Shown here piece by piece: positions 329-36,005 of a DNA stretch of 36,005 nt. Within the stretch, counting starts at the first letter, position 1. Each line of letters opens with the position of its first letter. The stretch comes from Bacteroides sp. (lineage in GTDB: Bacteria; Bacteroidota; Bacteroidia; Bacteroidales; Bacteroidaceae): the NCBI GenBank assembly GCA_017472925.1, contig JAFUNS010000040.1:1-36005 (forward strand). The letters are read 5' to 3'. Below the pieces are notes generated by a model. It was not told the origin of the DNA. It did not search any database and worked only from the letters and a program-made list of their open reading frames with translations. A program made the translations under genes and the position numbers.

Positions 329-1651
329 CTATATCTTCTTGTTCTGCCAATTTGCTTTTTTCAAGTAAATTACGCTCGTCAGCAGCAATAATCCGTAGTA
401 AAGGGCCTCGGTTGTGAAGCATATGGCAACAGGCGCTTTCAAGATAAGGCCTACCCAGCACACATAGAGGGCATAGATGACCAAGGTACCTGTTTCAAGG
501 TAAAGGGCAGCTTGGGTATTGCCCGTGCCCGATATGCCATTGAAGTAGATGTTGGCCACAGAAGCAATGAGCATGGCTCCTCCAATAACATATAGCGAGG
601 GGATGGACTCGGCTTGCAACAAAGGCTCGTTGGTGTAGATGGAGAGGGCGGCTTCGGGGAGGAAAACCATCAGGGCTACACAAGCCAGTACGATAATGAA
701 CGAAACCTTGGCTATGCGTCCCATGAGGTGCATGACATGGTCAATTCCACCAGAGCCTATCAGGTTGCTGACCAGTGTGTTGGTGGTAGTGGACAAGGCT
801 TGTACCGGGATGAGGATAACAATGTAGATGCTACGCACAATGTTGGCAATGGCCAGCTCGCGTTGGCCCAACCGTTCGATGGCCAGAAAGAAAACAAACC
901 AGGTGGCCATGGAAAGGAAGTATTGAACCATGGTGAAGCACGAAATGCTGAGAATGCGTCCCAACAAGGTGAAATCAAAACCGGAAAAACGGTTGAGAGC
1001 GTATTTCTTCAAGTCGACATACAACCAGGTGTAGAGGAGGCAGAAGAGGGTAGAGGCGGCTTCGGCCATGACCGAGGCAATAGCAGCTCCCTTCAAGCCC
1101 AGCTGAGGGAAACCAAAGTGTCCGAAGATGAGGGCATAGTCAAGGAATACATTAACCAAAGCCATAACTATAGCGTTGATGGTGAGGACTTTGGTACGGG
1201 TTATGCCTACATAGAGGGCGCGGAACATGACATTGACAAATGAGAAAAAGAACCCGAATATACGCCAATGGAAAAACTCCAATGTGCCTTCAAATATGGA
1301 ATCGGAGGAGATGAGCATGCGTACCAATGTGGGAGCAGACCACTGACAGAGGCCGAAAAGAATGGCCGCCATGACCAATAGGAACAGGCAACCTTGCATC
1401 ATCACTGGCCCTACTTCTTTATAGTGTTGCTCTCCATTGCGGCGGGCAATGAGTATCTGGGAGCCGGTACTGAAACCAAAGGCTACCGTAAAGATACAGA
1501 TATATAACAAACCACCCATGGCCGAAGCACCCAATTCCACTTCGCCTACATGACCCAAGAAAGCGGTGTCGGTCACATTAATCACATTCTGGGCCAATAA
1601 GGCCAACAAAATGGGATAACTTACATTCCATATTTCTTTGTTACTATACAT
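329..1651 (-). CDS. MATE family multidrug/Na+ efflux transporter
   Basis: This is a 440-residue polytopic inner-membrane protein with about twelve hydrophobic segments arranged as two MatE repeats. The N-terminal pattern WNVSYPILLALLAQNVINVT followed by DTAFLGHVG is characteristic of the DinF-like MATE branch. MATE proteins expel cationic or amphipathic compounds using Na+ or H+ gradients; the substrate here is unknown. I chose the ATG at 1651 (MYSNKEIW) over the longer frame from 1726. The longer frame would place codons over the -7 promoter element, and its extra 25 residues do not look like MATE. The gene stands alone, with ffh 62 nt downstream. Confidence 0.9.
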   Translation of the reverse strand: MYSNKEIWNVSYPILLALLAQNVINVTDTAFLGHVGEVELGASAMGGLLYICIFTVAFGFSTGSQILIARRNGEQHYKEVGPVMMQGCLFLLVMAAILFGLCQWSAPTLVRMLISSDSIFEGTLEFFHWRIFGFFFSFVNVMFRALYVGITRTKVLTINAIVMALVNVFLDYALIFGHFGFPQLGLKGAAIASVMAEAASTLFCLLYTWLYVDLKKYALNRFSGFDFTLLGRILSISCFTMVQYFLSMATWFVFFLAIERLGQRELAIANIVRSIYIVILIPVQALSTTTNTLVSNLIGSGGIDHVMHLMGRIAKVSFIIVLACVALMVFLPEAALSIYTNEPLLQAESIPSLYVIGGAMLIASVANIYFNGISGTGNTQAALYLETGTLVIYALYVCWVGLILKAPVAICFTTEALYYGLLLLTSVIYLKKANWQNKKI

Positions 1652-7335: not shown

Positions 7336-7412
7336 GGTGTGGTAGTTCAGTTGGTTAGAATACCTGCCTGTCACGCAGGGGGTCGCGGGTTCGAGTCCCG
7401 TCCATACCGCCA
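7336..7412 (+). tRNA. tRNA-Asp (GTC)
   Basis: The acceptor arm GGTGTGG pairs with CCATACC. The anticodon stem CCTGC/GCAGG encloses loop CTGTCAC with anticodon GTC. The T arm is CGGGT/TTCGAGT/CCCG-like. The discriminator is G, and the 3' CCA is encoded (7410-7412), unlike the other three tRNAs in this cluster. Confidence 0.95.
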
Positions 7413-7449
7413 TAATGAACAACATCGCTTAGGTGATGTTATTAAGGAT

Positions 7450-7521
7450 GGTCCGTTCGTATATCGGTTAGTACTCAAGATTTTCATTCTTGCAAGGGGG
7501 GTTCGATTCCCCCACGGACTA
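7450..7521 (+). tRNA. tRNA-Glu (TTC)
   Basis: The acceptor GGTCCGT pairs with ACGGACT, with the terminal pair being G-U. The D stem is GTAT/GTAC. The anticodon stem CAAGA/TCTTG holds loop TTTTCAT with anticodon TTC, and the T stem is GGGGG/CCCCC. CCA is not encoded: the bases after the discriminator are CAG. Confidence 0.92.
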
Positions 7522-7527
7522 CAGCCT

Positions 7528-7600
7528 GCGGAAATAGCTCAGTTGGTAGAGCACAACCTTGCCAAGGTTGGGGTCGCGAGTTCGAGCCTCGTTTTCCGCT
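7528..7600 (+). tRNA. tRNA-Gly (GCC)
   Basis: The acceptor GCGGAAA pairs with TTTCCGC. The D arm is GCTC/GAGC. The anticodon stem CAACC/GGTTG holds loop TTGCCAA with anticodon GCC. The discriminator is T and no CCA is encoded. Confidence 0.95.
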
Positions 7601-7607
7601 CTCCATT

Positions 7608-7681
7608 GCCTCTTTAGCTCAGTTGGCCAGAGCACGTGATTTGTAATCTCGGGGTCGTTGGTTCGAATCCGACAAGAGGCT
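7608..7681 (+). tRNA. tRNA-Thr (TGT)
   Basis: The acceptor GCCTCTT pairs with AAGAGGC. The D arm is GCTC/GAGC. The anticodon stem CGTGA/TCTCG has a U-U mismatch at its centre and holds loop TTTGTAA with anticodon TGT. The T stem is GTTGG/CCGAC. No CCA is encoded. Confidence 0.93.
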
Positions 7682-33349: not shown

Positions 33350-33375
33350 TAAGTTTGAAAGTAAATAGTATAGAT

Positions 33376-34560
33376 ATGATAGAATATATTCAACTTCATA
33401 ATTGGAAAAGTTTTGCTGATGCAAAATTATTCATAGAGCCTCTGACGTTCATTATTGGAACGAATGCCAGTGGAAAATCGAATATTCTAGATGCGTTGTA
33501 TTTTCTGTCATGTTTGTCACAGGGTGATACTGTGGACGAATGTGCAAGAAAAATAAGGGGAGGCCAGGAATGGATTACTCGTTTGGGAGAAGAATCCTTC
33601 TCTCTTGAGATTAAAGTTCATCAGGAACAGACTAATATAGATTACTATTACGAGATTGAAGTCATTCGTGAAAATGAAAAATTTGTAGTCAAGAACGAAT
33701 CACTCCAAAGAAATGGAAAGGTTGCGAAAAATTATCTTTTCCAGACAATTCCTGCTAAAGAACAGATGCTTTTGCCTGTTACTACCTATACAGGGAAAAA
33801 AGGGAACCGCAGACGATGGGATTTATATAAGGAAAAATCCATACTGTCTCAGTTTGCCTTACAAAAAATACAAAAAGATGTATCCGAAGGCGTGACGTTT
33901 GTACAAGAAAAGCTAAAACAAATATTCTTTCTCGACCCTATGCCGCAACACATGCGCGATTATAGCTCTTTGTCAAAAACACTCAAAGAGGACGCATCGA
34001 ATATTGCGGGTGTAATTGCGGCTCTTGATGTACAAGAAAAGGAATCGGTATTGAAGAGGCTTACAGAATTTGTGCGTCCGCTACCCGAACGTGATATTCA
34101 AAAGGTATGGACAGAAACAGTCGGTATGTTTGCCAAGGATGCTATGCTCTATTGTCTTGAAGAGTGGACTAGTGAAAAGGAGATTACTTTGGATGCAAGA
34201 GGCATGTCGGATGGTACACTTAGATTTATAGCTATAGTGGCAGCATTGCTTACGATACCTAAAGGTACTTTGCTGATGATTGAGGAGGTAGATAATGGCC
34301 TTCATCCTTCTAGAGCAAAAGAACTGATAAAGGCATTGAGCATACTTGGTGAAGAGTGCGGATTGGATGTACTCTGTACAACACACAATCCGGTATTGAT
34401 AGATAATTTAAGTGGGGAGATGATTCAGAACATTAGTTTTGTTAAACGTGATTTAATTACAGGTTGCAGTACAGTCTCCCTGTTGGAAGATAAAGAAAAC
34501 CTAGCTCGTCTGATGGCGGCAGGAACTGTAGGTGATATGATGATAAATAATCAGATTTAA
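33376..34560 (+). CDS. AAA15/SMC-like ATPase of a two-gene module
   Basis: 394 residues from the ATG at 33376; a longer TTG frame from 33355 exists. It has the ABC-type layout of RecF/OLD-like ATPases: the N-terminal IQLHNWKSFADAKLFIEPLT, Walker A GTNASGKS (28-35), signature region ARGMSDGTLRF (274-284), Walker B LLMIEEVDNGLHP (299-311, with Glu303/304) and H-loop TTHNP (335-339). A coiled-coil insert lies between residues 150 and 230. This is the sensor ATPase type found in many defence systems such as PARIS and Gabija. No TOPRIM or nuclease domain is fused; a PIN-like gene follows 2 nt after the stop. Confidence 0.88.
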   Translation: MIEYIQLHNWKSFADAKLFIEPLTFIIGTNASGKSNILDALYFLSCLSQGDTVDECARKIRGGQEWITRLGEESFSLEIKVHQEQTNIDYYYEIEVIRENEKFVVKNESLQRNGKVAKNYLFQTIPAKEQMLLPVTTYTGKKGNRRRWDLYKEKSILSQFALQKIQKDVSEGVTFVQEKLKQIFFLDPMPQHMRDYSSLSKTLKEDASNIAGVIAALDVQEKESVLKRLTEFVRPLPERDIQKVWTETVGMFAKDAMLYCLEEWTSEKEITLDARGMSDGTLRFIAIVAALLTIPKGTLLMIEEVDNGLHPSRAKELIKALSILGEECGLDVLCTTHNPVLIDNLSGEMIQNISFVKRDLITGCSTVSLLEDKENLARLMAAGTVGDMMINNQI

Positions 34561-34562
34561 TT

Positions 34563-35084
34563 ATGAAGAAGAAAGTCATTATCATCGATACTAATGTAAT
34601 GTGTGTCTGGTTGCAGATACCAGGAAAGGAAACTGCTGGCAAGAACAATAGTATTACATACGAATCAGTTAAAACATATATTGAAGAGGAAACTCGTAAA
34701 GAGGCTACTCTTGTGTTGCCTTTGACATCGATTATTGAGACAGGCAACTTTGTAGCTCAAATAGAACAGAATAGAAATGCAATAGGAAGTAAGTTGGCTG
34801 ATATGATTATAGCCGCTGCCGCAGGTACAGCTCCTTGGGTTGCTTTTTCACAGCAAGGAGATTTGTGGACCAATGAGGCATTGGTTAATTTAGCCAATCG
34901 TTGGCGGGAGACCGTTGTTACTGAAAAACAGTCTATTGGAGATGCAGCAATTGTAGATGTAGCAGAATATTACGCTAAATCCCATTTGTTTGAAGTCGTG
35001 ATTTATACAGGTGATGGCGGCTTGAAGAACCATGAATATAGAATTGCCGGTCAAATTCAAAAGACATTAAGGAGAAATCGGTAG
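34563..35084 (+). CDS. PIN-like nuclease partner of the ATPase
   Basis: 173 residues with the acidic pattern of PIN-domain ribonucleases: KVIIIDTNVMCVWLQIP (Asp9), LTSIIETGNF (Glu59), SIGDAAIVDVAEYYA (Asp127) and VVIYTGDGGLKNHE (Asp151). PIN domains cut single-stranded RNA, often tRNA or mRNA, and are commonest as VapC toxins. The protein is longer than a typical VapC (about 130) and no small antitoxin gene is adjacent. The 2-nt gap to the ATPase suggests the two act as one complex, the ATPase controlling the nuclease. Confidence 0.78.
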   Translation: MKKKVIIIDTNVMCVWLQIPGKETAGKNNSITYESVKTYIEEETRKEATLVLPLTSIIETGNFVAQIEQNRNAIGSKLADMIIAAAAGTAPWVAFSQQGDLWTNEALVNLANRWRETVVTEKQSIGDAAIVDVAEYYAKSHLFEVVIYTGDGGLKNHEYRIAGQIQKTLRRNR

Positions 35085-35138: not shown

Positions 35139-35180
35139 CACGAAAGTGAACCTGATACAAACGGGTTCACTTTCGTGTTT
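35139..35180 (+). terminator. Terminator after the ATPase-PIN pair
   Basis: CACGAAAGTGAACC (35139-35152) pairs perfectly with GGTTCACTTTCGTG (35164-35177), followed by TTT. The stem is 14 bp. Confidence 0.9.
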
Positions 35181-35286: not shown

Positions 35287-35294
35287 TATCTTTG
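35287..35294 (+). promoter_or_regulatory. -7 element of tandem RNA copy 1
   Basis: TATCTTTG lies 5 nt before the predicted RNA 5' end (GG at 35299-35300). The -33 region is not a clear TTG. Confidence 0.65.
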
Positions 35295-35298
35295 TGTA

Positions 35299-35551
35299 GG
35301 TTCTAGTAAGAACCAGACATACGGAAAGCGAAAAAGCGTTTAAAGATATTATTCCTTACCCTAAAATCGCCAAATCTTTAGTACAATGGGAATAATAGGC
35401 AACAAATGCTTACGCTCTGCTGTATACTTCTTCGTCGTAGGCAGGAATTATATCAGTATAGAGCGTGGGCTGTTGTTTCATATCTCTATTGTACGGGCGT
35501 TTGGCGATGCCTTGGAGTAAGAGATTTAAGCAACAGCGCCACGCTTTTTTT
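35299..35551 (+). ncRNA. Tandem structured RNA, copy 1
   Basis: About 253 nt from the -7 element to a T7 run (35545-35551). Stems seen: 5' hairpin GGTTCT/AGAACC (35299-35314). Long arm CATAC (35318-35322), AAGCGTTT (35334-35341) pairing with the AAATGCTT-like segment, and TATTATTCC (35347-35355)/GGAATAATA (35389-35397). 3' hairpin GCGTGG-GCTGTTG (35463-35475)/GCAACAGC-CCACGC (35530-35544) with inner ATCTCT (35482-35487)/AGAGAT (35520-35525). The loop ATCGCCAAA (35366-35374) can pair with TTTGGCGAT (35500-35508) in the other loop. No coding capacity stands out. The family is not recognised; a 6S-like or Bacteroidales-1-type RNA is one possibility. Confidence 0.8.
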
Positions 35552-35584
35552 GTACATAATTGATACATTGTAACGTAAATTCGC

Positions 35585-35592
35585 TATCTTTG
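35585..35592 (+). promoter_or_regulatory. -7 element of tandem RNA copy 2
   Basis: TATCTTTG, with TTG (35560-35562) 22 bases upstream, precedes copy 2 at the same relative place as in copy 1. Confidence 0.7.
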
Positions 35593-35594
35593 TG

Positions 35595-35850
35595 CTATCT
35601 CTCGTAAGAGAGGTAGACATACGAACTGCGAATGAGCGTTTAAAGATATTATTCCTTAACCTAGAAATCGCCAATTTCAACCACTAGGAATAATAGGCAA
35701 TGAATGCTTGCGCACCTGCTGTATGGTTACTTGTTATGTATACAAGGATTACACAGTATAGGGCGCGGGCTGTTGCTGTATTATCTAGTGGAGGGTGTTT
35801 GGCGATACCTTAGGTTAAGATAATGAGCGACAGTTCCCGCGCTTGTTATT
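35595..35850 (+). ncRNA. Tandem structured RNA, copy 2
   Basis: About 256 nt, offset from copy 1 by 300 bp. It has the same plan with changed bases: 5' hairpin CTATCTCTC-GTAA-GAGAGGTAG; TATTATTCC (35647-35655)/GGAATAATA (35687-35695); CATAC (35618-35622)/GTATG (35721-35725); 3' hairpin GCGCGGG (35763-35769)/CCCGCGC (35836-35842) with CTGTTGC/GCGACAG and inner TTATCT (35781-35786)/AGATAA (35818-35823). Loop-loop pairing ATCGCCAA (35667-35674)/TTGGCGAT (35799-35806) is joined by CTTAACCTA (35655-35663)/TAGGTTAAG (35811-35819). The 3' end is followed by TTGTTATTTTAAT rather than a strong T-run. Confidence 0.8.
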
Positions 35851-35922
35851 TTAATATTTCATCGATTTGATATAATCGTTTGAAGAATAAACACTTGAAG
35901 TTATTTTGAAAAGAGCGAAGTA

Positions 35923-35938
35923 ACGATTTGGGAATCGT
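35923..35938. repeat. Small hairpin near the right edge
   Basis: ACGATT (35923-35928) and AATCGT (35933-35938) flank TGGG. A leftward -7 box (TACCTTTG read from 35997 to 35990) lies close by. The last 150 bases hold no complete gene; a short leftward open frame crosses the right edge but is too short to assign. Confidence 0.4.
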
Positions 35939-36005
35939 GCGAATTTCTGCGGTTTGCGGTAGCAATACTCTCAAATAACTCTTGTGCTACAAAGGTAATG
36001 AAAAA

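Follow-up and report, generated by a model that had tools for sequence, protein, structure and literature searches.

An apparently uncatalogued family of folded leader RNAs with complementary hairpin loops in Bacteroidales, candidates for transcription attenuation by strand exchange

In the CopA–CopT pair of plasmid R1 and in similar antisense systems, the loops kiss, two helices and a four-way junction then form, and both lower stems are kept. In attenuators of the pT181 and leader-peptide types, one strand pairs exclusively in either a terminator hairpin or an upstream structure. 6S RNA is a long rod-like RNA with its own promoter. The FopS/GibS RNAs of B. thetaiotaomicron are a multicopy paralogous sRNA family with canonical promoters; as far as the accessible part of that report describes them, they consist of a single-stranded 5′ stretch and one terminator hairpin and have been deposited in Rfam (PMC11697453). 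The BrickBuilt MITE of P. gingivalis is a repeated intergenic long-hairpin element with internal 23-nt tandem repeats (PMC4596501).

The RNAs analysed here resemble CopA and CopT in having complementary apical loops on two hairpins (23/23 leaders compared), but the two hairpins share one strand at a distance of about 100 nt, instead of being on two RNAs from opposite strands; moreover, one hairpin is terminator-like and each copy carries private barcodes. Mutually exclusive pairing of one strand is shared with the pT181 and leader-peptide attenuators, whereas the competing partner is here a second, loop-complementary hairpin in cis, and no antisense gene or leader peptide was recognised in an unsystematic look. 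Like 6S/Bacteroidales-1, the RNA is long, rod-like and has its own promoter; unlike them, it is without a covariance-model match, is present in many copies per genome and has a gene start at a preferred distance. FopS/GibS is likewise a multicopy paralogous Bacteroides family with canonical promoters, but the present family has two hairpins with complementary loops and no Rfam match, and FopS as described in the accessible text was rejected as the same RNA on account of its different architecture. BrickBuilt shares the repeated long-hairpin form between genes of a Bacteroidales genome but differs in its terminal repeats and its internal 23-nt tandem repeats, and the text consulted mentions no fixed position relative to start codons (PMC4596501). 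Because of their other terminal repeats, MITE239, compared by description only, and BrickBuilt were not considered the same element.

The window, i.e. the whole 36,005-nt stretch of Bacteroides sp. DNA that was analysed, is an entire contig and ends at position 36005. Near its 3′ end two units lie on the plus strand, copy 1 at about 35296–35552 and copy 2 at about 35594–35853, and 195 nt of DNA remain 3′ of the copy 2 core. The copies were 74.9% identical over 247 nt (blastn, E about 1e-36), and a repeat search of the window returned five direct-repeat families (D1–D5), all in register, with 298–300 nt spacing and 77–91% identity. The calculated folds had energies of -90.6 kcal/mol (z -6.2) for copy 1 and -98.7 kcal/mol (z -6.8) for copy 2, and 0/200 dinucleotide shuffles equalled either value. 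No ORF of at least 80 aa was found within either unit. A first, sequence-only reading of this DNA had described two structured RNAs of about 255 nt, about 300 bp apart, each with its own -7 element and without a conserved reading frame, and all of this was borne out. Its remark that conservation is concentrated in loops and stem flanks was also correct in substance: the blocks TCGCCAA and GGYGTTTGGCGATRCC are the most constant parts of the units, and the two helices adjoining them vary freely in sequence with their pairing kept.

From 5′ to 3′, the elements are ordered as promoter, stem-loop, strand a, V1, K1, V2, strand b and inner hairpin, followed by strand c, V2′, K2, V1′, strand d, U-run, tail hairpin and start codon. 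Strands a and b form hairpin H1 with K1 at its tip, and c and d form hairpin H2 tipped by K2. In the common type, K2 reads GGY-GTTTGGCGAT-RCC and K1 reads GAAA-TCGCCAA-TTTC or an equivalent. The features of the two copies are as follows.

35287–35294 (+): copy 1, -7 promoter element TATCTTTG, by sequence match
35299–35314 (+): copy 1, 5′ stem-loop GGTTCT-AGTA-AGAACC, from the fold
35334–35411 (+): copy 1, hairpin H1 with tip K1; strand a at about 35334–35355, strand b at about 35388–35411; 5′ half alone -25.8 kcal/mol
35355–35361 (+): copy 1, barcode V1, 5′ strand CTTACCC, pairing with 35514–35515 and 35517–35521 with one bulge
35361–35381 (+): copy 1, K1 apical hairpin CTAAA-ATCGCCAAATC-TTTAG, by the loop complementarity test
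35381–35387 (+): copy 1, barcode V2, 5′ strand GTACAAT, pairing with 35488–35494
35461–35544 (+): copy 1, hairpin H2 with tip K2; strand c at 35461–35475, strand d at 35531–35544; 3′ half alone -45.5 kcal/mol
35488–35494 (+): copy 1, barcode V2, 3′ strand ATTGTAC, complement of GTACAAT
35495–35512 (+): copy 1, K2 hairpin GGGC-GTTTGGCGAT-GCCT, with GGY:RCC covariation in the family
35514–35521 (+): copy 1, barcode V1, 3′ strand, pairing with CTTACCC
35545–35551 (+): copy 1, U-run of 7 T directly 3′ of H2, read from the sequence
35585–35592 (+): copy 2, -7 promoter element TATCTTTG, by sequence match
35595–35616 (+): copy 2, 5′ stem-loop CTATCTCTC-GTAA-GAGAGGTAG, from the fold
35656–35663 (+): copy 2, barcode V1, 5′ strand TTAACCTA, with a perfect complement at 35811–35818
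35664–35678 (+): copy 2, K1 hairpin GAAAT-CGCCA-ATTTC, by the loop complementarity test
35681–35687 (+): copy 2, barcode V2, 5′ strand CCACTAG, with its complement at 35785–35791
35761–35842 (+): copy 2, hairpin H2; strand c at 35761–35776, strand d at 35827–35842; 3′ half alone -45.4 kcal/mol
35785–35791 (+): copy 2, barcode V2, 3′ strand CTAGTGG, complement of CCACTAG
35793–35810 (+): copy 2, K2 hairpin GGGT-GTTTGGCGAT-ACCT, by the loop complementarity test
35811–35818 (+): copy 2, barcode V1, 3′ strand TAGGTTAA, complement of TTAACCTA
35833–35838 (+): copy 2, GTTCCC in strand d; proposed tail partner of TTCCC is GGGAA at 35930–35934, 5 bp here
35843–35853 (+): copy 2, U-rich stretch directly after H2, from the sequence
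35920–35940 (+): copy 2, possible tail hairpin with loop TGGG, by analogy with relatives; local fold -4.7 kcal/mol
35998–36000 (+): possible start codon (ATGAAAAA...) of a gene served by copy 2

The two copies differ at their 3′ ends. Copy 1 is without a tail hairpin, without GUUCCC and without an ORF behind it, and has CAACAGCGCCACGC followed by 7 T. Copy 2 has GTTCCC, the ATG at 35998 and a possible tail hairpin, seen in the local fold only and absent from the best fold of the whole tail; the copy 2 unit may extend past 35850 to that hairpin and possibly to the ATG. Analogous 5′ stem-loops of different sequence were seen by eye behind the promoter in relatives. On the minus strand at 35988–35995, at the contig end, a -7-like element, TACCTTTG, points back at copy 2; it might give rise to antisense transcription of the leader or be a chance occurrence. 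Elsewhere in the window, a two-gene unit upstream of the leaders (33355–35084) encodes a 401-aa AAA_21/AAA_15 ATPase (E 1.3e-35) and, 2 nt after it, a 173-aa protein that had no Pfam match and by eye has the look of a PIN-type nuclease; the two may form a defence or toxin-antitoxin pair. Behind this unit comes a perfect 14-bp inverted repeat (35139–35177), and four tRNA genes stand in a row at 7336–7681.

A covariance-model scan against Rfam 15, which the sequence-only reading had proposed as a check, gave no match of the window element at the gathering score of any family. The suggested relation to 6S/Bacteroidales-1 RNAs was dropped on this result, and the seven weak matches of the window up to E = 10 include no 6S family. 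Among 20 chosen relatives, Rfam recognised one tRNA and one DUF805b RNA, neither overlapping the element, and nine variant leaders had no match up to E 0.1. A DUF805b RNA match of 38.9 bits is located near a leader, without overlap, at 1230–1264 (-) of locus L039. No comparable element is described in the literature covered by our search. These folded leader RNAs of about 250 nt appear to constitute an uncatalogued family.

The same reading had held that a lack of homologues in relatives would argue against function, and homologues proved to be abundant. Partial blastn matches were present in 7/40 related genomes, the window's own counted. A gapped motif pattern matched 25/393 genomes of the order (own included; up to 10 matches per genome) with none for the reversed pattern; one of the 25, L036, apparently in coding DNA, was judged a chance match and rejected as a member. 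In named genomes at least 119 stretches matched the pattern, by label nearly all from Bacteroidales or unspecified Bacteroidetes. Among the matches listed were Bacteroides fragilis Q1F2, B. finegoldii DSM 17565, Parabacteroides distasonis, Butyricimonas synergistica, Coprobacter secundus, Odoribacter lunatus and one MAG labelled Lachnoclostridium. We then used R1, a covariance model of 162 positions seeded with 40 of 101 listed sequences. It located six copies, all with E of at most 1.1e-9, in the window's genome, at least one copy in 36/40 sampled genomes of the genus (cut-off E 1e-3, maximum 8 per genome) and copies in 33/99 genomes of the order (cut-off E 1e-5, maximum 13 per genome), the own genome counted in both samples. 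On 118 genomes drawn from the phylum, R1 matched four, namely the own genome and three outside the order, labelled as of the same class or the same phylum. These three overturned a restriction to Bacteroidales, which the exact pattern had given (3/395 genomes, all in the order); by eye, their K1 and K2 loops, though of other sequence, are complementary and a U-run is present, and in two of the three an ORF begins 76–78 nt behind the match. Shorter variants of the family are seen in L189, L226 and L235–L237. Three IMG/VR contigs (L183, L184, L185) also carry the leader, with ORFs at 80–96 nt, and carriage by phages or islands may help it to spread.

The pairings were examined in two ways. In 112 matches aligned to the model, an alignment that came from 100 chosen sources and, being fitted to the model, is biased toward it, 92.9% of cells were paired versus 67.2% after shuffling and 40–52% after sliding, 25/26 modelled pairs had changed on both sides, and 0/500 shuffles reached the observed value on any of five measures. 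V1 showed all four Watson-Crick types and was paired in 98.8%, and in the K1 stem 99.4% of cells were paired. Three of the 112 rows are reverse-strand images of rows already present (L100 +, L143 -, L137 +) and were left in; an antisense image of the rod is able to score against the model.

The second test was free of alignment and compared the duplex energy of a member's own partners with that of swapped partners. It used 123 non-redundant members of 164, the rest being without flanks, with N or redundant. V1 gave z -49.4 and V2 z -33.5; whole strands gave -20.5 for b:c, -17.7 for c:d, -6.0 for a:b and -5.7 for a:d, versus +1.1 and -0.9 for the controls a:c and b:d. In the 95 members in which the motifs could be located, anchored segments gave z -20.0 for the upper and -0.5 for the lower stem of H1 (a:b), -10.4 and -16.4 for the two parts of H2 (c:d), -11.2 for the competing outer b:c stem, -1.6 for the inner b:c stem, which is nearly constant in sequence, and -3.6 and -0.7 for the closing stem of the rod (a:d); the controls were at -1.6 and +2.7 (a:c) and -1.4 and -0.3 (b:d). 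By these comparisons of sequences, H1 and H2 are the best supported of the predicted pairings, the outer b:c stem is well supported and the closing stem of the rod weakly. MAFFT alignments of the members, which are unequal in length, misregister V2 and a:b; their column statistics had the top stacks in V1, H2, V2, H1, K1 and K2, but z 4 was exceeded by no pair of outer b:c and by two pairs of the a:c control. For these reasons the partner-swap duplex tests were preferred.

At least five contiguous V1 pairs were present in 107/123 members, versus 5.5 expected from swapping. In K2, the Y-R pair of GGY:RCC covaries in step and is a standard pair wherever a member has letters at both positions. 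At least seven contiguous Watson-Crick pairs between K1 and K2 were found in 23/23 leaders with nine loop sequences, the leaders having been picked to include weak and variant matches and two duplicates in one set of 20 having been left out. The matched loop stretches were ATCGCCAA, AACCGCCAA, TCTGGAC, ATCCCCA, CTTCGCA, TCTGACA, ACTTAGC, TTCTCGCA and ACAGCCAA; swapped partners reached six pairs in 21.5%, mostly within one type. That whole loops have been replaced with their complementarity kept is strong evidence for a loop-loop contact, although loop complementarity by itself does not discriminate kissing hairpins from a continuous rod.

Next, we considered where members stand relative to genes. 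Downstream DNA of 320 nt or more was available for 147 members. In 117 of these, an ATG ORF of 60 aa or longer began on the same strand 25–130 nt after the core (median 89 nt), and in 87 of the 117 the start codon was at 78–110 nt; the mirrored upstream control gave 26/150. The remaining 30/147 loci had no same-strand ORF in range. The sequence TAnnTTTG, which we take to be the Bacteroidetes -7 box, occurred 40–135 nt before the core in 150/165 members, versus 12/162 on the reverse strand of that region and 13/151 in a region 300 nt further up. A coding start at a preferred distance and an upstream promoter, recognised by sequence match, are thus usual in the family, and from this position the usual member is predicted to be a 5′ leader of about 300 nt. 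The proposal of a regulatory RNA family consequently holds in part: the family is structured, of a regulatory type and new, but given the start codon at a preferred distance its members are as a rule not free-standing sRNAs. Copy 1, which has no coding start downstream, may be an exception to this rule.

Directly after strand d, at least five T in 7 nt were present in 89/100 members, versus 8/100 at a control position 45 nt further; this count omits 23 of the 123 members, in which the anchor motif was missing. When the 3′ half was folded by itself, at least four of the last five nucleotides of d were paired in 90/100. H2 is hence built like an intrinsic terminator, a GC-containing hairpin followed directly by a U-run, with a loop much longer than usual. 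A terminator scan found none in the window, the scan admitting only loops of 3–8 nt. As in attenuators, an alternative structure shares a strand with the terminator-like hairpin: c covaries with d and with b, and the pairings of c with b or d, and of b with a or c, are mutually exclusive. The GUUCCC-type block of d had a match of at least six Watson-Crick pairs in the tail in 25/63 members (5.1 expected; maximum 10.3 in 200 shuffles), and d:tail matches of at least five pairs ended a median of 23 nt before the ATG. In the whole-strand swap test, d:tail gave z -6.6, with controls that were not flat (a:tail -3.1, c:tail -2.3).

We consider it somewhat probable that these RNAs are bistable attenuators, in which H2 would be a terminator that is dissolved by strand exchange between H1 and H2, an intramolecular pairing like that of CopA and CopT. 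Each unit would be a self-contained 5′ leader RNA able to hold one of two folds. H1 would form first during transcription, and H2 with its U-run would form a hairpin like that of an intrinsic terminator. The complementary apical loops K1 and K2 would kiss, pairing would spread from them into V1 and V2 to give a four-way junction, and the end state would be one uninterrupted rod, with strand c now captured by strand b. In the rod the terminator would be lost and the polymerase would read into the gene about 90 nt downstream, after which the freed GUUCCC of strand d would pair with the loop of the tail hairpin, about 23 nt before the start codon. Through the barcodes, each copy would pair with itself and not with its paralogues. 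The family itself, its pairings, U-run and barcodes and its location before genes are shown by the sequences, whereas termination at H2, the switch between rod and hairpins, its direction and what sets its balance are inferred. The weak support for the closing and inner stems of the rod, the negative terminator scan, the 30 loci with no ORF in range, the tail controls that are not flat and the lack of a regulon naming a signal count against this reading. Copy 2 of the window probably serves as leader to a gene that the contig end interrupts. Copy 1, which combines a strong H2 and 7 T with the absence of a tail and of a downstream ORF, probably yields only a terminated RNA of about 250 nt.

The fold energies bear on a rival explanation, a 5′ mRNA stabiliser in which the rod or the kissing junction is always formed, the U-run terminates little and the fold only blocks RNases. 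Over 100 members, the unconstrained fold was better by a mean of 10.5 kcal/mol than the best fold without pairs between the halves, so that a switch would have to be kinetic; the unconstrained search, however, includes the split fold and can hardly lose. In the window the two folds were near-equal, at -77.2 (unconstrained) and -73.9 kcal/mol (split) for copy 1 and -80.7 and -78.1 kcal/mol for copy 2. The 5′ stem-loops that by eye are usual behind the promoter, and the diversity of the downstream genes, would also suit a stabiliser. Such a role leaves unexplained why c covaries with both d and b, the frequent U-run and the d:tail match near the start codon, and we regard it as unlikely.

The barcodes keep their pairing but diverge among the paralogues of one genome. 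Nine of the ten leaders in one genome, G376, are close paralogues (L043–L045, L047–L052), and between them the mean difference was 0.58–0.59 in V1 and 0.46–0.49 in V2, versus 0.04–0.09 for strands a and d, K1, K2 and the tail, with the inner part and the 5′ region in between at 0.20. V1 was nevertheless complementary at all seven positions in 9/9 of them (one G-U in one). Across the family, 113 distinct V1 7-mers were counted in 123 members. They matched flanking DNA no more often than swapped 7-mers did (40 versus 38.6 and 41 versus 38.5; n = 107), and a role of the barcodes as guides to neighbouring DNA was rejected for want of an excess. The divergence could reflect either selection for addresses that do not cross-react or drift of helices free in sequence, with template switching in the palindrome. 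A class of address-coded leaders in Bacteroidota, in which a kissing loop and two copy-specific barcodes driven to diverge let attenuators switch or feed back on themselves without cross-talk, is a possibility that we put forward only tentatively. In G376, related ORFs (MKKLI.C.G...) stand behind seven of the nine paralogues; two, of 941 and 989 aa (L044 and L047), were scanned at full length and have FGE-sulfatase and ALK/LTK glycine-rich domains. Of the ten G376 copies, five have a contig end no more than about 300 nt away, which is to be expected of repeats.

Tandem copies recur. At spacings of about 300–335 nt there are two in the window (300 nt), two each in L085 and L181 (about 330 nt) and four in L132 (331–335 nt), and pairs at about 500–550 nt are found in L090, L082, L161 and G819:C4. 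The first tandem copy had no ORF start within 130 nt in the window, L085, L090, L132, L181, L200 and L203; in L159, with copies 1.4 kb apart, an ORF follows each. These arrays lend some weight to a trans-acting or self-regulating RNA, in which terminated leaders would pair through K1/K2 and the barcodes with nascent copies of the same leader in a negative feedback, and tandem copies without an ORF, copy 1 included, would be dedicated sRNAs. Copy 1 indeed has a promoter box, H1, H2 and seven T with no ORF behind it, and copy-specific barcodes would be most useful if pairing in trans were possible. The window copies differ in their barcodes, however, so that only their kissing loops would match, most members have a gene at the preferred distance behind them, and the V1 7-mers showed no excess of matches in flanking DNA. 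This explanation, too, seems to us unlikely.

The downstream proteins were diverse: 56 Pfam families were recorded in 106 proteins, scanned out of 115 downstream references, nine close paralogues or short ORFs being left out. The most frequent were LRR_5 and LRR_8 (9 each) and LRR_4 (4), followed by Poly_export, DUF6140, Glug and others (3 each), and 76/117 proteins had a lipobox or hydrophobic N-terminus by a crude score. The genes include those of surface proteins, namely BspA-type leucine-rich repeat proteins, polysaccharide export proteins and lipoproteins, and of small DNA-binding-like proteins. In L083, L108 and L165 (B. fragilis Q1F2, B. cutis and B. stercorirosoris), the proteins behind the leader are probably the three Poly_export/SLBB entries of the tally, and their genes perhaps head capsule or exopolysaccharide loci. 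Small helix-turn-helix-like proteins also recur by eye, at about 70–85 aa in L189, L190, L221, L225, L087, L127, L157, L176, L072 and L152, and the leaders of the first four carry the ACCGCCAA/TTGGCGGT loop variant. Two identical leaders of the CTGGACA loop type, L215 and L216, lie 2.3 Mb apart in genome G010 before ORFs of 135 and 138 aa with similar beginnings. Among the best-represented families neither a defence theme nor a metabolic one was evident, an anti-phage defence regulon was rejected with single matches only in the best 25 of 29 families, and no regulon naming a signal was found among the 56 Pfam families of the 106 proteins.

Second-messenger riboswitches serve many unrelated genes. 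Numerous copies in one genome, placed before genes that are unrelated and often encode exported proteins, would accordingly suit a riboswitch or a protein-bound antiterminator whose K1/K2 junction senses a widespread signal. TCGCCAA/TTGGCGA was the commonest loop pair collected, though the searches were seeded with it. Unlike a ligand-binding core, the loops can be replaced as a whole if complementary, and their nine types hold no common sequence; a conserved binding core, if present, would lie elsewhere in the leader. We judge this explanation improbable. A DNA element, i.e. a miniature transposon or folded single-strand recombination site spread before genes, is very improbable: it would fit the imperfect palindrome, the up to 10 (pattern) or 13 (model) copies per genome, the contig end within 180 nt behind 4/10 copies in G376 and the three viral contigs, but not the preferred distance and orientation to start codons, the promoter box before 150/165 copies or the barcodes that differ between otherwise similar copies. 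Bridge-RNA, retron and integron attC origins were rejected on the preferred start-codon spacing and on the lack of a transposase or reverse transcriptase in the best 25 of the 56 downstream Pfam families.

Bacteroidales are major members of the human gut flora, and to our knowledge few cis-regulatory RNAs are known in them. The sequence comparisons made here show a widespread family of structured leaders that is absent from Rfam 15. Its members have helices kept by compensating changes, apical loops complementary to each other, a terminator-like hairpin and a preferred position in front of genes, and they would act as transcription attenuators operated by loop-loop strand exchange. At the least, the covariance model gives a means of finding a large set of unannotated leaders. 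If the attenuator mechanism is true, it would be a new way to build a transcription switch, and in the barcode helices selection against cross-reaction between RNAs could be tested directly. Should the more tentative address-coded reading be true as well, gene-specific addressing in these bacteria would be carried by hypervariable RNA helices.
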